A DNA stretch of 41,889 nt, taken from contig JANQHS010000147.1 of assembly GCA_028282565.1 (NCBI GenBank), forward strand, positions 1 through 41,889, given 5' to 3'. The DNA comes from Cytophagales bacterium. GTDB taxonomy: Bacteria; Bacteroidota; Bacteroidia; Cytophagales; CCMP332. Within the stretch, counting starts at the first letter, position 1, and every line of letters starts with the position of its first letter. Below are positions 13,762 to 38,015 of this stretch, one piece after another. The notes below the pieces were generated by a model. The model searched no databases and had not been told where the DNA came from. It was given only the letters and a program-made list of their open reading frames with translations. The translations under genes and the position numbers were made by a program.

Positions 13762-16700
13762 ATGAAAAAGTTTACTTCAGCCTTAAACCTAGGTTTATTT
13801 CTCCTTTCATTTTTATCATTTTCACAATTACATGCCACTACTCATAACGTTACCGTTATGAATTTTGGCTTTTCTCCCTCTGCTCTGAATATCACCCAGG
13901 GAGATACGGTGATTTGGACTCTCATGAGCGGTAGTCACAATGTGAACGGTACACAGGCGACCTTTCCTTCAAATCCTGCCTCTTTTGGTGGTTTTCCCGC
14001 GAGTTCTTCATGGCCACCATTCGAATTCGTCTTTGCAATCCCGGGTTCATACAACTATCAATGTGATCCACATTCCGGAGCTATGCAGGGAACAATTACA
14101 GTAGCACCTGCCGCGGCGAGCGGAGGTTGTGATCTTTTTATCTCCGAATACATTGAAGGTTCGAGCAACAACAAAGCCATCGAATTGTATAACCCTACTT
14201 CTTCAACCATAAACCTTTCGGACTATGAGATGAAAAGAGCCAACAATGGAAGTACATCCTATGGCTCGACTCTAGGGATGTCCGGTTCGCTTGGCCCTTA
14301 CGAGACTTACCTTATTGCTAATCCTTCCGCCGATTCCGCATTGTTGGGTATAGCCGATACTACCGATGGGATCACTTTTTTTAATGGAAATGATGTGCTC
14401 CATTTATTCCACATTCCTTCCGGAGATCTGATCGATGGCATTGGCAGATTAGGTGAAGATTCAATTTGGACCGTTCCTGGAGTAAACGGTGTTTCAGGAT
14501 CAACCGGTGAACATACGCTTGTCAGAGCTGGGTTTGTTACGGGTGGAGATTCTTCATGGAGCGTGGTTCGCCATGAATGGTATGTTTTTCCTCAAAATGA
14601 GTTTGGTTATTTCGGGCACCATAATGGCGCGGCCTGCGGAAGCTCGATTCCCGCATATATGATCAGTGAGGTCAAAGGATTTGATGCCAATGGTGTGGCT
14701 GATTCCAATGGTGTTGAATGCCAGTTGACAGGGGTCATTCATAATCCGGATCAGGGGTTTTTTGATGTAGAATTTGCCTTTCAGGACGGAAGTGCGGGTA
14801 TTTGGCTGGAGGGAAATCCATCACCTGATTATTCACCCATTGCCGAAGGCGACCTGATCAGGGTCTGGGGTAGGATTAATTTCAGTTCAGGTGTTACCGA
14901 ATTCGATCCGGATTCCATGGTGCTGATCTCAGCCGGCAATCCCCTGTTTGTTCCTGAGAAAATGGATACCATTAACGAGTACACCGAGGGCCGCTATATC
15001 AGGATCGACAGTGCAAGGATGTTGAACGTAAACCCAGGTGATACATTCGCAATCGGTGGAGGTGGCGTAAACTATACTTTTGTGACGATTCAAACGGATA
15101 CCTTCCAAATCAGGGTGGATCGTGCTTACGAAGATGATTGGAATGGCAATCCTCTCCCCACCGGTCTTTTTAATATGGTCGGGATTGGGAGTCAGTTTGA
15201 TGGATCTTCGCCTCACTTCGATAATTATCAAATATTCCCAAGCCGCTATTCGGATTTTGAAATACTGTCCGTAGCAGGAGAGGCTATTTCATTTGCAGGT
15301 TCTTCGGGGTCGGTACCGGAAAACGGTGGTAGCCATCTGGTTCTTGTAACGGTTGCCGATACTTTGAATTCACCTTCAACGGTGGAGGTTAATCACACGG
15401 GTGGAACAGCCGTTTCTGGTGTAGATTTTACGTTTAATGATACTACGCTGAACTTCTCCGCCGGGGAAATGGATAGTTTTTGGTTGGAAGTAACGATCAT
15501 AGACAATGCTGTTGCCAACCCTGATAAAACGGTCATTTTGAGTCTTGAGAACCTTACCGGAAGTGCGGTCTATGGAATTGATACCGTTTACACCTTGACG
15601 ATAACTAACGATGACATTCCTGCATATTCCATTGCTACAATTCGAGGTAATGACACCGATGGGATTGCTGATTCAATTGGGGTTTATTGCTCTGCCACAG
15701 GTGTGGTCTTGGGTGTGGACGTTCAAGGAACATCTGCAAATAACGCTTTCAGTTTTGATGATGGAACCGGAGGAATCTCTCTGTTCAAATTTGGTGGCTT
15801 TACACCCCCTTATACCGTAACTGAAGGTGATTCGGTGAGGGTCATAGGTGTGGTGTCGCAGTTTAACGGCCTGTCCCAATTCAATCCTGATTCCATGGTT
15901 GTTATTAGTAGCGGAGCAAATGTTCCGGCCCCGTTTGTTGTGACGGATTTGGATGAAAGTACCGAAAGCCGTTATATACGGATTAACGACGTGACCTTGG
16001 TTGATCCAAGCCAATGGAACACGGGGAATAGTTTTACAGCTCAAATCACAAATGGGACGGATACCTTTGACCTGCGAGCTGATTCGGATATCAGTGTTTC
16101 AGATATGCTCCCCCCTGTTGGCGTTTTTGATGTTATTGGCATTGGCGGGCAATTTGACTTAAACGGTCCTCCCTACACTACTGGTTACCAAATACTCCCG
16201 ATGGATTCTACGCAGATCATACCTGTGATTAATCCGGGCCCCTCAATCCCAACATATTCAATTGGTGATGTAATAGGAGTGGATTCTGACTTTTTACCGG
16301 ACTCACTGGGAGTAGAGTGCAAATTGGTTGGTGTGGTGTATGGAGAAAATTTCAGGCCATCTGGAATTGAATTGACTTTGATCGATCCTCTAAACAATGA
16401 TGACGGAATCCAAATATTTAGTGGAGGAAATCCTTTTGGTGTCTCTCTCCAAGAAGGCGATGAGATCAGGGTTATTGGAGAGATCGGATTCCTGGATGGA
16501 ATGACAAGAATTCTGCCTGATTCTATTGTTGAAATCTCCAGTGGAAATACGCTTAAGAACCCAACACCGGTTTCGATTTTTGATGAATTCTCTGAGTCAA
16601 ATCTGGTTGAAAGGGAGGGAACTTATGTTGGAGGCAGTTGGAGTCCGGGAGGTACCTTTGATGTAACCTTTGATGAGCTTGCTCCTCTCACCGGTTCTTT

Positions 16701-17127
16701 TACTGTTACTATTCATGCGGAATGTGACCTAAACTCTGCTGGGGCGGAACCAATTGATGGTGAAGATTATAGAATTATCGGCATTGGTGGCCAAAGAGAT
16801 TTATCAAGTCCCTGGAATTCAGGTTATAGGTTACTTCCGAGAAGGTCCTCTGATCTAACACTGATTAGTGGTTTTGAAGATGCTTTGAATTCTTCTTCAT
16901 TCAATATTTATCCTGTTCCATCATCCGGAATAATGAATATCGACATTTCAGAAGACGGATTTGAAGAAGTTCAGGTCATGGACATGATCGGAAATGTTAT
17001 GTTCACCAGGGAGATCAGCAAAGGTCATAATGTTCTGAATCTCGGCTCACTACCTTCAGGGAATTACCTGATCAAAGCATCAGGAGATACAAGGGTGGAG
17101 ACCAGGAAAATTACGATTGTGAAATAG
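13762..17127 (+). CDS. Secreted multidomain protein: cupredoxin, lamin-tail domain, three OB-like repeats, Calx-beta, T9SS sorting domain
   Basis: 1121 residues with a signal peptide (about 1-25). Residues 26-115 form a plastocyanin-like cupredoxin with candidate type 1 copper ligands H59, C101, H104 and M108. About 120-290 is a lamin-tail domain (CDLFISEYIEGSSNNKAIELYNP). Three repeats start at about 296, 619 and 829 with the related sequences IPAYMISEVKG, IPAYSIATIRG and IPTYSIGDVIG. Each continues through a 'gd.iRV.G.i....g...f.pDSmv.iSsG' block, resembling the OB-fold part of large extracellular nucleases. A Calx-beta domain lies at about 506-617 (VPENGGSHLVLVTV...LTITNDD). The end (about 1047-1121) is a T9SS type A sorting domain (NIYPVPSSGIMNIDI...KITIVK). 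I see no nuclease catalytic domain. It is predicted to be surface-attached or secreted; its role is unknown. A strong terminator follows. Confidence 0.85.
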   Translation: MKKFTSALNLGLFLLSFLSFSQLHATTHNVTVMNFGFSPSALNITQGDTVIWTLMSGSHNVNGTQATFPSNPASFGGFPASSSWPPFEFVFAIPGSYNYQCDPHSGAMQGTITVAPAAASGGCDLFISEYIEGSSNNKAIELYNPTSSTINLSDYEMKRANNGSTSYGSTLGMSGSLGPYETYLIANPSADSALLGIADTTDGITFFNGNDVLHLFHIPSGDLIDGIGRLGEDSIWTVPGVNGVSGSTGEHTLVRAGFVTGGDSSWSVVRHEWYVFPQNEFGYFGHHNGAACGSSIPAYMISEVKGFDANGVADSNGVECQLTGVIHNPDQGFFDVEFAFQDGSAGIWLEGNPSPDYSPIAEGDLIRVWGRINFSSGVTEFDPDSMVLISAGNPLFVPEKMDTINEYTEGRYIRIDSARMLNVNPGDTFAIGGGGVNYTFVTIQTDTFQIRVDRAYEDDWNGNPLPTGLFNMVGIGSQFDGSSPHFDNYQIFPSRYSDFEILSVAGEAISFAGSSGSVPENGGSHLVLVTVADTLNSPSTVEVNHTGGTAVSGVDFTFNDTTLNFSAGEMDSFWLEVTIIDNAVANPDKTVILSLENLTGSAVYGIDTVYTLTITNDDIPAYSIATIRGNDTDGIADSIGVYCSATGVVLGVDVQGTSANNAFSFDDGTGGISLFKFGGFTPPYTVTEGDSVRVIGVVSQFNGLSQFNPDSMVVISSGANVPAPFVVTDLDESTESRYIRINDVTLVDPSQWNTGNSFTAQITNGTDTFDLRADSDISVSDMLPPVGVFDVIGIGGQFDLNGPPYTTGYQILPMDSTQIIPVINPGPSIPTYSIGDVIGVDSDFLPDSLGVECKLVGVVYGENFRPSGIELTLIDPLNNDDGIQIFSGGNPFGVSLQEGDEIRVIGEIGFLDGMTRILPDSIVEISSGNTLKNPTPVSIFDEFSESNLVEREGTYVGGSWSPGGTFDVTFDELAPLTGSFTVTIHAECDLNSAGAEPIDGEDYRIIGIGGQRDLSSPWNSGYRLLPRRSSDLTLISGFEDALNSSSFNIYPVPSSGIMNIDISEDGFEEVQVMDMIGNVMFTREISKGHNVLNLGSLPSGNYLIKASGDTRVETRKITIVK
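14647..16866 (+). repeat. Three protein-level OB-like repeats inside the T9SS cargo gene
   Basis: Repeat units begin at about 14647, 15616 and 16246 and encode roughly 200 residues each. The first two are separated by the Calx-beta domain. They share the opening 'IP.Y.I..v.G.D..G.aDS.GV.C...GV', a central 'GD.iRV.G.i' and the ending 'D..GIGgQFD...p...gYqi.P'. Divergence is high at DNA level, so these are old duplications. Confidence 0.75.
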
Positions 17128-20122: not shown

Positions 20123-22678
20123 TTGGAAGCAAAATTTTCAGATAGAGTAAAGGAAGTCATCTCTTTGAGCAGGGAAGAGGCTCTGAGATTAGGACATGAT
20201 TACATCGGCACCGAACATCTTCTGCTGGGGATGATCAGGGAAGGTGAAGGCATGGCAATATCTCTCTTAAAAAAACTGGGTGTATCTCTTGAGGAGCTTA
20301 GACTGAGCATTGAACAAGCCACCATGGGTACTGCTACCCACAATGTGAAGAACCTGTCTAATATCCCATTGACAAGGCAATCCGAAAAAGTATTGAAGAT
20401 CACTTATCTTGAAGCGAAGATCTTTAAATCAGAAGTCATCGGTACGGAGCATCTTCTGTTGTCGATCCTCAGGGACGATGATAATATCTCAACGCAAATC
20501 CTGTCAAAATTTGATGTCAATTATGACGTTGTCAAAGAATTATTGGAATACCATCTCCAAAATCCTGTAGCAGAGAGCTCTTCTGACACCGAGGACAGCG
20601 ATGAGGATTCGGGGAAACTCTTTGGCTCCGGAGGTGGAAAAGAGAGCGGGGGTAAATCACCTACCGCGGAAAAATCAAAAACCCCGGTTCTGGACAATTT
20701 TGGCAGAGACCTGACCAAGCTTGCAGAGCAAGATAAGCTTGATCCGATAGTCGGCCGGGAAAAAGAGATTGAAAGGGTCGCCCAAATTTTGAGTCGCAGG
20801 AAAAAGAACAACCCTGTGTTGATCGGGGAGCCCGGAGTGGGTAAGACCGCAATCGCCGAGGGATTGGCTCTGAAGATAGTTCAGAAGAAAGTATCTAGAG
20901 TGCTTTTTGGCAAAAGGGTTGTGACCCTTGATCTCGCCTCACTTGTTGCGGGTACAAAATACCGCGGACAGTTTGAAGAAAGGATGAAGGCTGTGATGAA
21001 TGAGCTTGAAAAAGCCACCAATGTCATTCTTTTTATAGATGAGTTGCATACCATTGTCGGAGCAGGGGGTGCAAGCGGATCGCTTGACGCTTCCAATATG
21101 TTCAAACCTGCTCTCGCCCGCGGTGAAATTCAATGTATAGGCGCAACAACCCTGGATGAGTATCGTCAATACATTGAAAAGGATGGTGCCTTAGCCAGGA
21201 GGTTTCAAATCGTAATGGTTGATTCTACTACCCCGGAAGAAACCATTGAGATCCTAAATAATATCAAAGGGAAATACGAGGATCATCACAACGTGACCTT
21301 CACCGATGAAGCACTTGAGGCTTGTGTGACCCTTTCTGATCGCTATATCAGTGATCGGTATCTTCCGGACAAGGCCATTGATGTCCTTGATGAAGCGGGT
21401 TCCAGAGTACACCTGAGAAATATTCATGTGCCGGATAACGTGATCAAATTGGAGGAGGCGATTGAGAACGTGAAAAAGGACAAAAACAACGTTGTAAAAA
21501 GCCAGAAATACGAAGAGGCAGCAAAACTGCGGGACAAGGAGAAAAAGCTTCTTGAGCAGCTTGATCATGAAAAAGGGTTGTGGGAAGAGGAGACCAAGAA
21601 GAAGAGGTACACAGTTGATGAAGAAAATGTCTCTGAAGTAGTGGCCATGATGACAGGCATTCCAACCAAAAGAGTCGCTGAGAATGAGACTGAGAAGCTC
21701 AGGAATATGGCCAAGGAGCTGTCAAAAAGTGTTATTGGTCAGGATGAAGCCATTACCAAACTGACCAAGGCAATTCAAAGGACCAGGGTAGGATTGAAGG
21801 ATCCCAGAAAGCCGATTGGATCATTTGTTTTCCTCGGGCCTACGGGTGTGGGTAAAACCGAGATGGCTAAGGTTTTGGCGACTTATCTTTTTGACAAAGA
21901 GGACTCTCTCGTCCGTGTTGATATGAGTGAGTACATGGAGAAATTCTCGGTCAGCAGACTTGTCGGTGCACCTCCGGGATATGTGGGATACGAAGAGGGT
22001 GGACAATTGACCGAAAAAGTCAGAAGGAAGCCTTACAGCGTTGTTCTTTTGGACGAGATAGAAAAAGCTCACCCCGATGTGTTTAATATTCTGCTTCAGG
22101 TCCTTGATGATGGTGTTCTCACCGATGGACTTGGTCGGAGGGTGGATTTTAGGAATTGTGTGATCATTATGACCTCCAATATCGGGGTCAGGGATCTGAA
22201 GGATTTTGGAATGGGGATCGGGTTCAACACTCAATCCAGGCAAGATAATCAGGACGATATTATTAAGGGTACCATTCAAAAGGCACTGAAAAATACCTTT
22301 TCTCCTGAATTCCTGAACCGTCTTGATGACGTTATCGTGTTCAACTCTCTGGAGAAAGAGCACATTTTCAAGATCATTGATAACGCTCTTGCAAAACTGT
22401 TCACCAGAGTTGAGGCCATGGGATATGAATTACAGGTGACCCAAAAGGCTAAGGATCATATTTCTGAGAAAGGATTTGACCCCCAGTTCGGTGCAAGGCC
22501 TTTGAACAGGGCAATTCAGAAACATCTGGAAGATCCATTGGCAGAGGAAATCCTGCAGGGAGATTTGAAGGAAGGTGATATCATTGTGGCGGATTTCCCG
22601 GCGAACAAGGAGGAGATTGTTTTCAAGATCAAGAAGAAAAAATCAAAGAAGGAAGAGCCCAAAAAGGAGCAGAACTAA
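20123..22678 (+). CDS. clpC: ATP-dependent Clp protease ATP-binding subunit ClpC
   Basis: 851-residue AAA+ unfoldase that feeds substrates to ClpP. The TTG start is chosen because the product then begins MEAKFSDRVKEVISLSREEALRLGHDYIGTEH, where Bacteroidota ClpC proteins begin. Domains: Clp N double repeat (1-145), first ATPase module with Walker A GEPGVGKT (from G235) and Walker B VILFIDELHT, a UVR-type segment in the middle region (VKSQKYEEAAKLRDKEKKLLEQL, about 455), second module with Walker A GPTGVGKT (about 573) and VVLLDEIEK, then the D2-small domain. The UVR segment separates ClpC from ClpA and ClpB. The last base triplet interlocks with the opposite-strand VWA gene (CTAA at 22675-22678). 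The C-terminus is very Lys-rich. Confidence 0.96.
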   Translation: MEAKFSDRVKEVISLSREEALRLGHDYIGTEHLLLGMIREGEGMAISLLKKLGVSLEELRLSIEQATMGTATHNVKNLSNIPLTRQSEKVLKITYLEAKIFKSEVIGTEHLLLSILRDDDNISTQILSKFDVNYDVVKELLEYHLQNPVAESSSDTEDSDEDSGKLFGSGGGKESGGKSPTAEKSKTPVLDNFGRDLTKLAEQDKLDPIVGREKEIERVAQILSRRKKNNPVLIGEPGVGKTAIAEGLALKIVQKKVSRVLFGKRVVTLDLASLVAGTKYRGQFEERMKAVMNELEKATNVILFIDELHTIVGAGGASGSLDASNMFKPALARGEIQCIGATTLDEYRQYIEKDGALARRFQIVMVDSTTPEETIEILNNIKGKYEDHHNVTFTDEALEACVTLSDRYISDRYLPDKAIDVLDEAGSRVHLRNIHVPDNVIKLEEAIENVKKDKNNVVKSQKYEEAAKLRDKEKKLLEQLDHEKGLWEEETKKKRYTVDEENVSEVVAMMTGIPTKRVAENETEKLRNMAKELSKSVIGQDEAITKLTKAIQRTRVGLKDPRKPIGSFVFLGPTGVGKTEMAKVLATYLFDKEDSLVRVDMSEYMEKFSVSRLVGAPPGYVGYEEGGQLTEKVRRKPYSVVLLDEIEKAHPDVFNILLQVLDDGVLTDGLGRRVDFRNCVIIMTSNIGVRDLKDFGMGIGFNTQSRQDNQDDIIKGTIQKALKNTFSPEFLNRLDDVIVFNSLEKEHIFKIIDNALAKLFTRVEAMGYELQVTQKAKDHISEKGFDPQFGARPLNRAIQKHLEDPLAEEILQGDLKEGDIIVADFPANKEEIVFKIKKKKSKKEEPKKEQN

Positions 22679-24744
22679 TATCCTCCGAGTCTTTTTCTAA
22701 AAAACCATTCAACAATAAGCCAGAAGGAGAGGATAAATAGTATCCACTCCAAATCTATTGCAGGGGCTTTTGATTCGCGTACCGTGATCACCTCCGGTGT
22801 ATTCTCCGAAAGCAGCGAATCAAGCTTAGGATCGTTGGGATCGTTAAAAAAGCTCCCCCCATTCCTGCTTGCAAGGCTCTTCAGCATTTTGTGATTTGCA
22901 GCCAGATCCAGCTGTTCCAACTCTGATTTGATAATGGAGAAGTTGCCATGCTCGATAAATTCTTTGCCTCCGTAATTGGTTTTTGCCTCAAACCAATAAT
23001 CGCCTTCGTCCAGGCCTGTGATCTGAAATTTTGAATCCGCACCTGAATTCGTGAACTGATAATTATACTCTTCACCTGTTTTTTCCTTCACCCTTAGACT
23101 GATCTGATTTCCAAATGTGCGCTCAAATATCTCGTTGTAGTATTCGCTTTTGAATTTGACGGCTTGCCCCTCATAGACGGTCTTTTCCGGAGCATAGAAT
23201 TTGAACCTATCCTTTTCCTCCTGAAGAACCAGATATTGTATTGTTCCATTGATGATCAGGTCGCTAAGCTCTGATGATCCGAAGAGCTGGTTTTCTGCGA
23301 GCCTCCATTTCCATAGTGAGGTGCCCATGAAAACTCCGATCCTGTGGTCTTCATCAGGATGAAAGAACAGTAAGGGTCTGTCGGTATTGACACTTCCTAT
23401 TTTTTGATTTAGAACTTTTTGGGCATTTGATGATGTGTAGTAATCTCCAAAAGGGACCACTTGCGGAGGGAATTGGTTTATACGTGGCTTCAGCTCATCG
23501 GGGATATTAAAAGAACTCCAATCCTCATCAAAAAAAGCCATTACGTCATCTACCTGGGGTTGGTATTTTCCTCTGACCGGTTGCTTGAAATCAATTCCGA
23601 GTTGCCGGAGGTCCATGGCTTTACCCCAAATGAAAAACTTGGGTATTTTCTCACGGATGGCCTTTTCGTATAGCTCTTTTCCTACACCTTGAAAGTTGGG
23701 GATCTGGTGAAAAATAATCAGATCCCATTCCTCCTGGAGGTTTAGATCAGAACCCTTGAACCAAATACTGAGTTCTATACCTTCCTTTTCCCCAAGAGCA
23801 TTTCGAATAGCACCCATATCAGGGTGGGGGGATAGCCCCGCGATCAAAACCTTTTTCTTGTCGTCTATCACATCGACATAGATGGTTCTGGAATTGTTTT
23901 GCTTGTTAAACTCTTCCTTTTCGGAGTAAAGGCTTACCGTTATTTTTTTCCGCCCCGCAGAGTCAGCAAGCAGATAAAAGACAGTTTCACCATAGTCATT
24001 CTCAGATTCGATCTTAAGCCTCTGGCTATGAAGCAGCTTGCTGTTTTCATCCCGGACGATGAGTTGAAACTCCTCAGAGGCGAATCCTTTTGAAGAGTAC
24101 TCGATTTTCATCGGGTACTTTGAACCCGTATATGCGATCCTGTTATAATCCAGAAAGGATATCTTCAAGTCGGAAGGTTTGGTGGTATCTCCTGTTCCGA
24201 GTACATGGACAGGAAAGGGATATTGATCGAAGTCAGGAGATAAGCCCGAGTTGAAAATTCCATCGGAGACCAGGAGTACACCTGATATTTTATTCGGATC
24301 ATAGGCCTTTTCCAATTCATGCAGGAATCCATCAATATCCGTTTGGGAGTATGAAAACGAATTCTTCAGAGATTCATTTTCTTCAAAGCCTGACAAATAT
24401 TCAGTAGCAGCAATTCGGTTCGATGCTTCAATTTTTGAACTATAGTTTCTGAAATCATTTTCCAATGATTCAAGGTCTATCGGATCTAATCCGGAGATCA
24501 TCGACTCAGAATCATCAACCGCCAAAATAAATGAGGTCTTTTGTGTGAACAGGTTATCTGTTTTCAGGAAAGGAGAAAGCAGAATAAGGGCAATGAAAAA
24601 TATCCCTAAGAACCTAACGCCACGTAAAACCAGATTGGCCGTTTTACTCCAGGGATGAGGCCATTGGTAATGAACCCAAACCAATCCTACGGAGATAGGA
24701 ATGATAAGGAATATCCAAAGCAGGTTTGATTCAAACTGGAGCAA
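22675..24744 (-). CDS. Membrane protein with von Willebrand factor A-like domain
   Basis: 689 residues from a TTG start; no ATG lies near. Two N-terminal membrane helices (LLWIFLIIPISVGLVWV and FLGIFFIALILLSPF) precede a VWA domain that starts SFILAVDDSESM, containing the MIDAS metal-binding DxSxS, and continues with SGVLLVSDGIFNSG. A long periplasmic part follows, with a glutamine-amidotransferase-like fold region (KKVLIAGLSPHPDMGAIRNAL ... LIIFHQIP) and beta-rich domains. The last helix is WILFILSFWLIVEWFFRKRLGG. This is the layout of large BatA-related membrane proteins found in Bacteroidota and Planctomycetes; no function is established. The gene is convergent with clpC (4-bp overlap). 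Confidence 0.82.
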   Translation of the reverse strand: MLQFESNLLWIFLIIPISVGLVWVHYQWPHPWSKTANLVLRGVRFLGIFFIALILLSPFLKTDNLFTQKTSFILAVDDSESMISGLDPIDLESLENDFRNYSSKIEASNRIAATEYLSGFEENESLKNSFSYSQTDIDGFLHELEKAYDPNKISGVLLVSDGIFNSGLSPDFDQYPFPVHVLGTGDTTKPSDLKISFLDYNRIAYTGSKYPMKIEYSSKGFASEEFQLIVRDENSKLLHSQRLKIESENDYGETVFYLLADSAGRKKITVSLYSEKEEFNKQNNSRTIYVDVIDDKKKVLIAGLSPHPDMGAIRNALGEKEGIELSIWFKGSDLNLQEEWDLIIFHQIPNFQGVGKELYEKAIREKIPKFFIWGKAMDLRQLGIDFKQPVRGKYQPQVDDVMAFFDEDWSSFNIPDELKPRINQFPPQVVPFGDYYTSSNAQKVLNQKIGSVNTDRPLLFFHPDEDHRIGVFMGTSLWKWRLAENQLFGSSELSDLIINGTIQYLVLQEEKDRFKFYAPEKTVYEGQAVKFKSEYYNEIFERTFGNQISLRVKEKTGEEYNYQFTNSGADSKFQITGLDEGDYWFEAKTNYGGKEFIEHGNFSIIKSELEQLDLAANHKMLKSLASRNGGSFFNDPNDPKLDSLLSENTPEVITVRESKAPAIDLEWILFILSFWLIVEWFFRKRLGGY

Positions 24745-33617: not shown

Positions 33618-36600
33618 ATGGAAGAGCAAGCAAAAAAGGAAAAAGCAAAAAAGGGAAGGAGATCCTTCCTGAGATGGGCTCTTGCCCTGCTATTTCTGGT
33701 GGCATTGCTCTGGGGAGCCTACGCCTTTACGGGTTATTATCTGAGGACCAATATTTCCAAAGAGGTTTATGAAAGGAGTCAGGGGATCTATACCGTTGAA
33801 TTCAGCAATTTTGAGCTTCTCGGGCTCGAAATGGGTTTTCGACTGACAGGCTTCAAGCTGATTCCCGATATAGAGCTTTATCAGAAAAAACTCAAAAGCG
33901 GAGAGGTCAAGACCTCCCTCTACGAGATTACCATTCCAAAGTGTGAGCTCAGGGGCCTGAATTTCTTCGAGGTTTTCTTGAGCCCGGGCATCGAATTGCA
34001 GGAATTGGTTATCAGCAATCCTGAGGTCAGGATACTCGCCCACATCGATTCAAGTTCCAATGAAGGCAGCAAAGAATATGATGATATTGGACCTATAGTC
34101 AGGAACCTGATGCAATACCTGCTCATCGATCATGTGCGGATCGATGAAGGCATTTTTGATCTCTTCGTCGACAAAGAAGAGCGGATTGAGAGTTTTACCG
34201 CATCGAAGATCAGCCTTGATCTACAGGGATTCAAGGTTGACAATGCCGAAGGTTTTGGTTCAAAGAACTTTCTGTACTCCAAAGACTACTATATCCATCT
34301 TCAGGACTACAAGCTGAATCTGTCCGATGGAGTGCATACACTTGAAGCAAACGAGATCGAATTCTCCAGTCAGGATTCTTCCATTTTTGCCAGGGGCTTC
34401 AATCTTTCTCCGGGCCAAAAGCATCCCGACAGCCTTTTTGAGTTGGAGAAACCCTATTATCATTTCTTTTTTCCCGAGTTGAGCGTGAAGGGTGCTGATA
34501 TTCAAGCTGCTTACCTGACCGATACCGTAGGTATTCGTTTGGTCCATTTGCAGAGACCCAATTTTCAGATCTTCAATATTCGGAAGGAAAAGGACCCTGC
34601 GACCAAGAAAGAATTCTCGGGTTTTGCGCAAAATATTTATCCGCTTGTACAGGGTTACTTCAAGGAGGTACTGATCGATTCGGTTTTGATCGGGGATGGA
34701 ACCTTTGATTTCTATGAGCCTTTTGAGGAATATCCGGAGAACATCGAGATCGAGGGTATCCACGTCGCTCTTGAGCAGTTCAAACTAGACTCCACAGCCT
34801 ATCTGGAAGAAGATAACCTTCTCTATGCAAAAGAATTCTGGTTGGATTTCGAATCGTTTAGAATGGACCTCAAGGATAGCATCCATGAGATCAAGGCCGA
34901 TTCATTGTTCGTTTCTTCAAAGCTTCAGGCGATCAGGGCCGAAGGGTTGACCTTAAATCCGAGGAATGAGGTCAATTATTCAATGAATTATGTCGACTTG
35001 AAAATCCCTGCGATCGTCATAGAAGGAATTGATTTGATCAAAGCATACCATAAGAACGTTTTGACCGCTAGCCTCTTTGACCTTGAAGATCCCGTGATCA
35101 AGGCAAATATTGGAAGAGCAAAAAAGAGGAAAATCAAGAGGGCAGACGAAGCCAAACCCGATTTTGTCCACTTGGTCTCGAAGTATTTCGACACTGTTGC
35201 GGTCAGTAGAATTCAGCTGGATAACGGCCTTGTGGATTTTTCTTTTCTGCAAAACGGAAGAAGAGAATCCGTTTTTGGTGATCAGATCAATATTGTCCTC
35301 ACCGGCTTCGAGATCGACTCTATGGCAGCACATCGCCGGAATCGCATCTTTTTCTCCAAGCAGTTGGATTTAGAGATCCATGATTATGATTTCCTTCTGG
35401 ATCAATTGCATGAGGTCAAAGTGAAAAAAATGACTGTTTCTACAAGAAAGAGTCTTATCGATTTTCAGGACATCGTTTTTGCTCCGCGAGACACTACCAA
35501 TGTGCTTGACAAGCTTAAGGAACTTGGACAAACGACGATTTTTGACCTTCACATTCCCCGACTTCGTTGGGAAGGAGTCGACCTTTTTAAGTTGATCTTT
35601 CAAGATGCGCTGATCGCTCGGAGAATTCATATGATCGATCCGGTCTACAATTTTTCGGTTTACCCCCAAAGAAGGAAACAGACCGAGATCAGGCCAATCC
35701 TTGAGAAGGATCTCAAGGATATTATCACCCAGTTTGTCAATAGAGTTCAGGTGGGAGAGTTATTTGCTGAGAATGCCATTGTTCATGTTTCCATTGAGCC
35801 TCACCGGGATGATCAGTTTTGGACCAGAGCTCCTTTGGATTTCAAGTTGATCGATTACCGTTTGGATAAGTATACCCCGGTAGACCAATCCAGATTTTTC
35901 TTCGCAAGCGATCTTCAACTAACTCTTACCGATTATGACATGGATTTCGGAACACCTGGTCATACCATGTTTGCCAAGAAAGTCTTCCTTTCCTCAAGGG
36001 AAAAAAGGCTCATTGGGGAGGGTATCAAAATTGTGCCCAAAAAATACCGCGGTGGGCTTTTTCCATTCAAAATGAAGTTCAAGGCTGATTTTCCAAAGAT
36101 CGAAGCTACGGGCCTCGACCTTAAGGTGCTGATCATGGAAAGGAAGCTTGTCATTAAGGACCTGATCGCAGATCGACCGGAATTGGAATACCATCAGACT
36201 AAGGGATTCTTTAATCAGTCACCTCCGCAGGCCGGAAAAGGAAAGAAAGGCTTGAAAGGTGTTTCGATCGAACGCTTTCTTACGAGGAACGGAAAGATCT
36301 CACTCTACGATGAGAACGGAAGGAAATTCATGGGCTCTGATTTTGAAGGGCCCATCAAATACTTTGCTGCCGACGATTATTCCACCGGACCATCGCCAAC
36401 AAGATTCCTGACCAGGCAGATCGGGTTAAAATTTACCAATGGCTTCTTCCTTTTTCCGGATGGACTTCATAAGGCCGTTTGGGACAAACTCAGCATTGAT
36501 CAAGGCAATGCAGAGATCAACTTGTACGAAGGAAAACTGGTTGCACTGCCAGGAGCTGATCCTTATAGGACTCTTTCAAGGACCCAAAAGAGTGCTTATA

Positions 36601-38015
36601 GGTCCGGAAGCATCAAAAAATTGACCATCAGTGGTTTTGACATCGATGAGTTTTATAGAACGGGTCTGGTGGAAATTGACAGGGTAACCCTCAATGATAT
36701 GGGACTGATCGAATTTGTTTTCCCCCAACTAAGGAAAAAATCAACTCTGAATCTCTCAGCGATCAGGATCAAGTTACCCAAGGGAATAACCGGGATTGAT
36801 ATTCGCACAGTGGCGATCAAGAATTTTCACTTCTTGAGATATAATGTTCAGGAAGACTCCTTGGATCTGGTTTTGGACCAGGGGAGGATCTATGGAAAGG
36901 CCTCCGGGATCAGGATCCGCGATGGAGATAGGTGGAACGACAATCGTATAGGTTTTGCCGATGACATTACACTGCTGGTTCGGAACTTTAACCGGAAGAT
37001 CCCCGGGGCGTTGATGGATATCAATGCCAAGGAAGTTGGGATCTCTACCGGAAGGAAGGAAGCCTTTGTCTATGATTTTCATGTCAAACCCTGGTATGGA
37101 AAATATCTTCATTCCAGAAAACTTGGCTATCAGGCAGACCGAACAGAGGTCAAGATCAAGAAAATATTTCTGAAGGATTTTGACCTGATCAAACTCTACC
37201 ATGATCAATATCTGCAAAGCAGAAAGCTATTGGTTGATGGACTCTGGGTAAGCGATTACAGGGACAAAAGGGTTCCCGAGAGGAAGGATTTCTATCCCCC
37301 CATGCCTCAGGAAATTCTCAAAAAGATGGAATTCAGATTTAACCTGGATACCGTTGAGGTTCAAAATGGAGAGATCAACTATGAGGAGTTCGTTCCAGAC
37401 GGAAAGGTGGCCGGGATGATCACCTTTTCGGATTTCAGTGCCGTCGCCTCAAATGTCACCTCCGATCCGGATATCTACAGGCAGGACCCCTACCTCAAAA
37501 CATTCGGAAAGGCGGAATTGATGGGAGAAGGATTGATCAATTTCAACTGTGATCTGAATGTCCGTGATCCCGGGAATAAATTTGAAATGTGGGGGAGCGT
37601 TGGTCAAATGGATATGAGAAAGATAAACCCTATGGTGGAGAATGTGGCGTTTACCACCATCAAGAGTGGTTATATAAAATCCATACTTTTTGAGGCCCAG
37701 GCTGATGATCATTTTTCTACAGGCACCATGAAGTTCCGGTATAACGATTTCAAAATCGCTCTGATCAACAAGAATACCGGTCAGGTCGAAGGGATCGACA
37801 AAGGTTTTGTTTCCTTTCTGGCCAATACATTCGTCGTGAATACGAAAAATCCTCACCTTGGATTCTTCCGCGAGGGGAGTATATTCTTCAAAAGACTGCC
37901 CAATAAGTCGATCATCAATTATTGGTGGAAATCCATATATACAGGGATCAAAACAAGTATTGGAGCTCAGAATGAAAGAAAACTTCACAAGATTGCCGAG
38001 AAATCCGATGATTAG
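33618..38015 (+). CDS. Giant AsmA-like repeat protein, candidate intermembrane lipid-transfer protein
   Basis: 1465 residues with a basic cytosolic start (KKEKAKKGRRS), one N-terminal membrane helix (about 17-38) and then an entirely beta-rich periplasmic-type part. A motif of the form 'φP-x-φ-x-φ-x-G-φ-D-φ-x-x-φ' recurs at about residues 106, 284, 463, 646, 825, 999 and 1181. Examples are IPKCELRGLN, FPELSVKGAD, IPAIVIEGID, IPRLRWEGVD, FPKIEATGLD and IKKLTISGFD. The spacing is 174-183 residues. A second motif recurs about 50 residues after each ('V.I..G.fdf'). The C-terminus (GLINFNCDLNVRDPGNKFEMWGSV...) resembles AsmA/DUF748 C-terminal regions. AsmA-like proteins (TamB, YhdP) form long beta grooves that carry lipids between membranes. 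The repeat structure is seen directly; the transport role is inferred. Confidence 0.75.
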   Translation: MEEQAKKEKAKKGRRSFLRWALALLFLVALLWGAYAFTGYYLRTNISKEVYERSQGIYTVEFSNFELLGLEMGFRLTGFKLIPDIELYQKKLKSGEVKTSLYEITIPKCELRGLNFFEVFLSPGIELQELVISNPEVRILAHIDSSSNEGSKEYDDIGPIVRNLMQYLLIDHVRIDEGIFDLFVDKEERIESFTASKISLDLQGFKVDNAEGFGSKNFLYSKDYYIHLQDYKLNLSDGVHTLEANEIEFSSQDSSIFARGFNLSPGQKHPDSLFELEKPYYHFFFPELSVKGADIQAAYLTDTVGIRLVHLQRPNFQIFNIRKEKDPATKKEFSGFAQNIYPLVQGYFKEVLIDSVLIGDGTFDFYEPFEEYPENIEIEGIHVALEQFKLDSTAYLEEDNLLYAKEFWLDFESFRMDLKDSIHEIKADSLFVSSKLQAIRAEGLTLNPRNEVNYSMNYVDLKIPAIVIEGIDLIKAYHKNVLTASLFDLEDPVIKANIGRAKKRKIKRADEAKPDFVHLVSKYFDTVAVSRIQLDNGLVDFSFLQNGRRESVFGDQINIVLTGFEIDSMAAHRRNRIFFSKQLDLEIHDYDFLLDQLHEVKVKKMTVSTRKSLIDFQDIVFAPRDTTNVLDKLKELGQTTIFDLHIPRLRWEGVDLFKLIFQDALIARRIHMIDPVYNFSVYPQRRKQTEIRPILEKDLKDIITQFVNRVQVGELFAENAIVHVSIEPHRDDQFWTRAPLDFKLIDYRLDKYTPVDQSRFFFASDLQLTLTDYDMDFGTPGHTMFAKKVFLSSREKRLIGEGIKIVPKKYRGGLFPFKMKFKADFPKIEATGLDLKVLIMERKLVIKDLIADRPELEYHQTKGFFNQSPPQAGKGKKGLKGVSIERFLTRNGKISLYDENGRKFMGSDFEGPIKYFAADDYSTGPSPTRFLTRQIGLKFTNGFFLFPDGLHKAVWDKLSIDQGNAEINLYEGKLVALPGADPYRTLSRTQKSAYRSGSIKKLTISGFDIDEFYRTGLVEIDRVTLNDMGLIEFVFPQLRKKSTLNLSAIRIKLPKGITGIDIRTVAIKNFHFLRYNVQEDSLDLVLDQGRIYGKASGIRIRDGDRWNDNRIGFADDITLLVRNFNRKIPGALMDINAKEVGISTGRKEAFVYDFHVKPWYGKYLHSRKLGYQADRTEVKIKKIFLKDFDLIKLYHDQYLQSRKLLVDGLWVSDYRDKRVPERKDFYPPMPQEILKKMEFRFNLDTVEVQNGEINYEEFVPDGKVAGMITFSDFSAVASNVTSDPDIYRQDPYLKTFGKAELMGEGLINFNCDLNVRDPGNKFEMWGSVGQMDMRKINPMVENVAFTTIKSGYIKSILFEAQADDHFSTGTMKFRYNDFKIALINKNTGQVEGIDKGFVSFLANTFVVNTKNPHLGFFREGSIFFKRLPNKSIINYWWKSIYTGIKTSIGAQNERKLHKIAEKSDD
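33933..37500 (+). repeat. Seven-fold protein-level repeat (about 179 residues per unit) in the AsmA-like gene
   Basis: Units start at about 33933, 34470, 35005, 35555, 36091, 36614 and 37159, that is 522-549 bases apart. They are conserved only as protein motifs, with little DNA identity, so the array is ancient rather than a recent expansion. The sixth and seventh copies are the most diverged (the motif reads IKKLTISGFD and IKKIFLKDFD). Confidence 0.7.

Follow-up and report, generated by a model that had tools for sequence, protein, structure and literature searches.

What might a bacterium do with a 1465-residue envelope protein made largely of one repeated unit? The question is posed by a gene in the window analyzed here, a 41,889-nucleotide stretch that represents one contig (C37) of the 3.3 Mb draft genome of a Cytophagales bacterium. 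The gene occupies positions 33618–38015 on the forward strand (as do all of its features given below), starting with ATG at 33618 and ending with a stop codon at 38013–38015. No Pfam or NCBIfam model matched the encoded protein above threshold, and PDB sequence searches with the protein itself and with a 12-sequence profile gave no match; a scan of genome contigs gave a single locus, from a close relative of the same genus (67% identity), a Cytophagales MAG. We consider that the protein is probably an inner-membrane-anchored lipid conduit of the AsmA superfamily, assembled from tandem AsmA/TamB N-terminal domains and long enough to cross the periplasm, with lipid transport being the part that we infer.

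The hydropathy profile contains one peak (residues 16–42) followed by a large predicted periplasmic domain, an arrangement typical of the AsmA superfamily and one that bears out the sequence-only reading, which had called for a single N-terminal membrane helix. Values above 1.6 occur only in windows starting at residues 16–24, and the transmembrane helix is placed at residues ~16–38 (33663–33731). The N-terminus is basic, with the positive-inside segment KKEKAKKGRR before the helix, and the protein is predicted to span the inner membrane once in N-in orientation, with a large portion in the periplasm.

The remainder of the protein is dominated by the repeat array, which comprises six complete units of 174–183 residues each, flanked by an N-terminal part-unit after the membrane helix and a truncated seventh unit. 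The part-unit (33786–33893) corresponds to strands f–g, in the strand lettering used below, and to profile positions ~152–185 in homologues, in which the unit HMM matches directly after the transmembrane helix; it falls within the family region related to the AsmA/TamB N-terminus. Unit 1 (residues 93–272; 33894–34433) was recognized by the unit HMM (E 3e-49) and by hhalign, and is followed by unit 2 (residues ~273–450; 34434–34967; E 7e-51), unit 3 (residues 451–632; 34968–35513; E 1e-47), unit 4 (residues 633–812; 35514–36053; E 3e-44), unit 5 (residues 815–986; 36060–36575; E 1e-33), and unit 6 (residues 987–1168; 36576–37121; E 8e-39). The truncated unit 7, or cap (residues 1176–1291; 37143–37490), retains strands a–d and matches HMM positions 15–131 (E 2e-9). 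Overall, the seven matches span E values from 1e-51 to 2e-9; as the HMM was built from units 1–6 of 12 homologues that include this protein, independent evidence for repetition comes from two other comparisons. Single-sequence Smith–Waterman alignment matched units 1–4 to one another in register along the entire unit (z 11 to 28 versus shuffles), while units 5–7 were not reliably detected by this method. Alignment of profiles built from the 12 homologues placed all 21 of 21 unit pairs in register over 157–179 columns, with probabilities of at least 99.6% for every pair within units 1–6 and 69–97% for pairs involving unit 7, compared with at most 48% for reversed profiles.

The periodicity near 179 residues proposed from the sequence is therefore real, although the array is neither perfectly regular, contrary to what had been claimed, nor made of exactly seven units. 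The two motifs on which the proposal was based survive in part. The first, said to recur at seven sites, was found by strict regular expression at residues 106, 285, 463, 646, and 825, whereas at 999 and 1181 the pattern is kept but the proline is lost (LTISGFDID and IFLKDFDLI). The second, "V.I..G.fdf", occurs in its strict form only at residues 173, 356, and 1246, but belongs to the unit consensus as "I.IDsLeI.nGsL.Y". That consensus reads "..lfdi.iPeL.L.GiDL.kLlfekeL.IgkL.LdnP.Ielf ... dLyeLL.gyL.sI.IDsLeI.nGsL.Y ..." and continues "... sisfenisL.L.nF.LDS ... kfFyaddi.LsLkdY.f.LPDSLHtIkadkV.lSSkdseI.idNLsL.P"; its pattern is that of AsmA/TamB N-terminal domains.

Turning to other genomes, 206 of the 390 genomes sampled from the order, and 110 of 395 from the phylum, were found to encode the family; with only about half of the order's genomes having a long or short member, its function is evidently not universally required. 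An automated count over 103 clean arrays yielded 1, 2, 3, 5, or 6 full units plus cap, and HMM matches supplied a four-unit case (L194, 1178 residues). Across the clean arrays, protein length equals 384 + 179 × units (r 0.996), so that the earlier suggestion that unit number sets the length of the protein holds between species. Relatives with different unit counts keep the same C-terminal module. Among Cytophagales, the long form is dominated by six units plus cap (about 1420–1480 residues), with five plus cap (about 1280–1350 residues) in some lineages, and a one-unit-plus-cap form of about 550 residues occurs throughout the phylum. The present genome carries two such short paralogues, of 573 residues (G000:C132:3489–5207 region) and 554 residues (G000:C223:6082–7743) (L067 and L068), each composed of one unit, the cap, and the C-terminal module. 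Members of ~1650–1711 residues, considered as candidates for an extra unit, instead contain an insertion of 115–180 residues inside unit 3; this insertion occurs in one lineage (L035, L094, L096, L097, and L098), and that of L035 has no Pfam match. Identity between families is about 20%, and the units of distant members could not be assigned to specific positions 1–6, the margins being a few bits. The units within some long arrays (L045, L104, and L053) resemble one another more closely than any found elsewhere, suggesting amplification or homogenization within those lineages.

This distribution bears on how far the protein reaches. It is conceivable, though rather unlikely, that lipid is bound or carried at the inner membrane only, or handed to a second component, with the protein itself stopping short of the outer membrane. 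The short members, which are widespread in the phylum and keep both ends of the architecture, could not span the periplasm alone, which lends this alternative some weight. Set against this is the narrow length range of the long form (1420–1480 residues in most sampled genera), maintained despite about 20% sequence identity, which suggests a length constraint. A broader proposal, which we advance tentatively and regard as doubtful, is that the family constitutes a phylum-wide set of modular lipid bridges whose reach would be set digitally by the count of seven-strand modules (1 to 6 plus a fixed cap), Cytophagales having arrived independently at arrays of 5–6 modules because this length fits their envelope, and the short members working with other components.

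The kinship of the repeat unit was addressed by profile comparison. Over columns 16–296, the family profile aligns with the N-terminal region of TamB/AsmA proteins from Bacteroidota (probability 96%, E 3.6e-9), with reversed controls at or below 10% (9.6%). Several later units match the same N-terminal domain at lower scores, and a unit-pair profile matches the AsmA N-terminus at 94%; one reversed control reached 59%, making this unit-level match weaker than that of the whole family. Although the 1465-residue protein itself has no Pfam clan match above cut-off, DUF748, which has been connected with TamB and AsmA (PMC4494059), was matched at E ≤ 0.01 by 15 of 38 N-terminal halves and 9 of 38 C-terminal halves of homologues (best 7.7e-10). 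Profile comparison with single E. coli TamB, YhdP, and YdbH sequences gave no signal, the scores being level with those of unrelated controls. The AsmA/TamB N-terminus has been described as Chorein-N-like by Levine (PMC6791001). Each 179-residue unit is best read, from these profile matches, as a diverged copy of the AsmA/TamB N-terminal domain, iterated in tandem.

Kinship to TamB N-termini as well as to AsmA also lends something to the main rival on cargo, namely that a groove is present and serves outer-membrane proteins or their β-strands, as in a TamB-like assembly scaffold, instead of lipid. However, the genome encodes a separate, bona fide TamB (contig C192, 1346 residues, PF04357 E 5e-53), whereas the 1465-residue protein has no match to PF04357 (DUF490, the TamB C-terminal domain) and so lacks the terminus through which TamB engages the barrel that it works with. 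Nor was an Omp85/TamL gene recognized as a conserved neighbor. A protein-assembly role is weakened by these observations, and we judge it unlikely.

At the other end of the protein, the sequence-only reading had placed an AsmA-like C-terminus; instead, detectable AsmA kinship resides in the N-terminus and the units, and the last 300 residues form a conserved module of the family's own. The C-terminal module (residues 1292–1465; 37491–38012) shows the strongest conservation in the family and recurs in all short relatives, with matches at 1150–1460 across Bacteroidota. Residues N1337, G1369, Y1375, N1403, N1411, and R1426 are invariant in the family alignment. A conserved segment near its end, SIINYWWKSIYTGIKTSIGA (residues 1431–1450; 37908–37967), has the family consensus KSIFNYWWKAxLSGxKxSIGL, with a WW pair, and is possibly a helix that contacts the membrane or a partner.

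The fold of the array was approached by direct-coupling analysis of 577 units (Meff 447) and 515 adjacent-unit pairs (Meff ~396) from about 130 proteins. In an unsupervised scan for strand ladders, the top score was obtained for strands b and c, paired in parallel at offset 47 (12.4), followed by four antiparallel ladders: e–f (9.1), d–e (7.7), a–b (7.6), and f–g (7.3). The sixth ladder runs antiparallel between strand g of one unit and strand a of the following one (6.3; sum 192), and constitutes the inter-unit join. This ladder, the decisive one, is seen for adjacent units only and is absent when units two or three apart (n,n+2 and n,n+3) or shuffled partners are compared. Two independent statistics both rank it 1 of 80, and its rank is 1 or 2 in each of eight half-data splits. 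The c–d ladder is weak and its register uncertain by coevolution, with the best hydrophobic match at sum 203 (0.80). The parallel b–c join spans a linker with a predicted helix (consensus "dLyeLL.gyL"), and no ladder closing a unit onto itself is among the top scorers. From these couplings we infer seven strands per unit with one parallel join each, in the order ...a-b / c-d-e-f-g-a-b / c-d....

In the coevolution registers, hydrophobic columns face hydrophobic columns, with correlations of 0.98 (b||c), 0.85 (d–e), 0.80 (e–f), 0.86 (f–g), 0.58 (g–a'), and 0.83 (a–b), against a null with mean 0 and standard deviation 0.32; registers shifted by one gave negative values where tried. A groove requires a sheet that is hydrophobic on one side along the whole array, as here, and this sheet may curl into a U. 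The same pattern bears on a further proposal, that the long array serves chiefly as a mechanical spacer or tether, between membranes or within the periplasm, and that its groove is incidental. The wide range of unit numbers among relatives (1 to 6), as in spacer proteins, and the low identity of just about 20% between families accord with such a role, but hydrophobic faces kept aligned along coevolving ladders would be needless for a simple spacer, and we regard this proposal as improbable. That the units are independent globular β-domains on a string is very improbable indeed, as coevolution pairs the last strand of each unit antiparallel with the opening strand of its successor, in adjacent units only, with the hydrophobic faces aligned and no self-closing ladder prominent.

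The lipid conduit that we favor would accordingly be organized in the manner of a repeating β-groove (RBG) protein, as had been supposed from the sequence: coevolution supports a single sheet running through the unit joins, a helix crossover, a parallel restart, and aligned hydrophobic faces. Each 179-residue unit would form a seven-strand antiparallel meander followed by a helix-bearing linker that crosses back, the next meander starting parallel to the last strand. Zipped edge to edge, the units would make one continuous amphipathic sheet, which may curl into a U-shaped hydrophobic groove that starts at the inner membrane and leads towards the outer one, where the conserved C-terminal module would dock, either on the membrane itself or on a partner. 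The acyl chains of lipids would slide within this groove, whose length would be given by the number of units. A β-sheet extends by about 0.48 nm per strand. At about 50–57 strands, the six-unit form would measure ~25 nm and could cross the periplasm, which the one-unit form would not. The identity of the cargo as lipid, the direction of its movement, the curling of the sheet, and the contact with the outer membrane are the elements of this model that go beyond the couplings. In E. coli, the AsmA-superfamily proteins YhdP, TamB, and YdbH are jointly required, on genetic evidence, for phospholipid traffic (PMC8912898, PMC12977461).

With the AsmA-like superfamily of diderm bacteria (AsmA, TamB, YhdP, YdbH, YicH, and YhjG; Pfam DUF748/AsmA/DUF490/DUF3971) the protein shares the single predicted N-terminal inner-membrane helix, the β-rich predicted periplasmic part, and a homologous N-terminal domain, as found in Bacteroidota TamB/AsmA, and many family members match DUF748. 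It differs in that the N-terminal AsmA domain is present in 1 to 6 tandem, near-equal 179-residue copies evident by sequence, and in that the 1465-residue protein matches no Pfam or NCBIfam model and has no PF04357 end. The organism's own TamB belongs to the same superfamily, is of similar size, and is expected to form a groove, but is encoded by a separate gene and carries the DUF490 end. The AsmA-like proteins of F. johnsoniae (PMC12045153) are likewise from Bacteroidota, the phylum across which short members of the present family occur; the passages compared from that paper describe no regular repeat array. RBG proteins are defined by a meander and a helix or loop crossing back, with each unit ending on a strand parallel to the one that opens its successor and with unit number setting length (PMC7613979). 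The eukaryotic RBG bridges (VPS13, ATG2, SHIP164, Hobbit, and Tweek) thus share with the present array, on its coevolution topology, a multimer of odd-numbered meanders with crossovers (c–d being the weak ladder here), a parallel restart, and a sheet continuous across unit boundaries. Unlike them, the present protein is bacterial, is predicted to be periplasmic and helix-anchored in the membrane, shows clear homology among all units, and has seven strands per meander by coevolution rather than five; it may therefore be said to work like an RBG protein without being filed in the eukaryotic RBG superfamily.

The AsmA-type lipid groove as a kind is known. In the open-access literature searched, we found no tandem seven-strand modules that are recognizable from sequence and form a series of integer lengths. 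Dividing the known bacterial AsmA-like proteins into units by sequence is difficult, whereas the units of the present family are clear and traceable to the AsmA N-terminal domain, which touches on how such grooves are constructed and how bridge-like lipid transporters are sized. The natural series of 1, 2, 3, 4, 5, and 6 complete units with the same ends makes the relation of unit number to reach and to function directly testable, and provides a bacterial counterpart to a possible origin of VPS13-type RBG multimers through tandem duplication.

Finally, we considered the surroundings of the gene. Its neighbors are rarA, 46 bp upstream, and an α/β hydrolase gene about 50–60 bp downstream. No gene neighborhood of the family is conserved past the genus or family level, and no retained neighbor hints at lipid. 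Elsewhere in the window, a 689-residue ORF without Pfam match lies on the reverse strand (22675–24744), and positions 13762–17127 encode a secreted protein of 1121 residues that combines a type IX secretion sorting tail with plastocyanin-like, lamin-tail, DUF5689, and Calx-beta domains. In one genus, a gene for an ABC-transporter ATPase resembling the LolD type lies upstream of the family gene and stops 13 bp short of it (L041:11927–12607, and likewise in L042–L044); running in the same direction, the two possibly form an operon.
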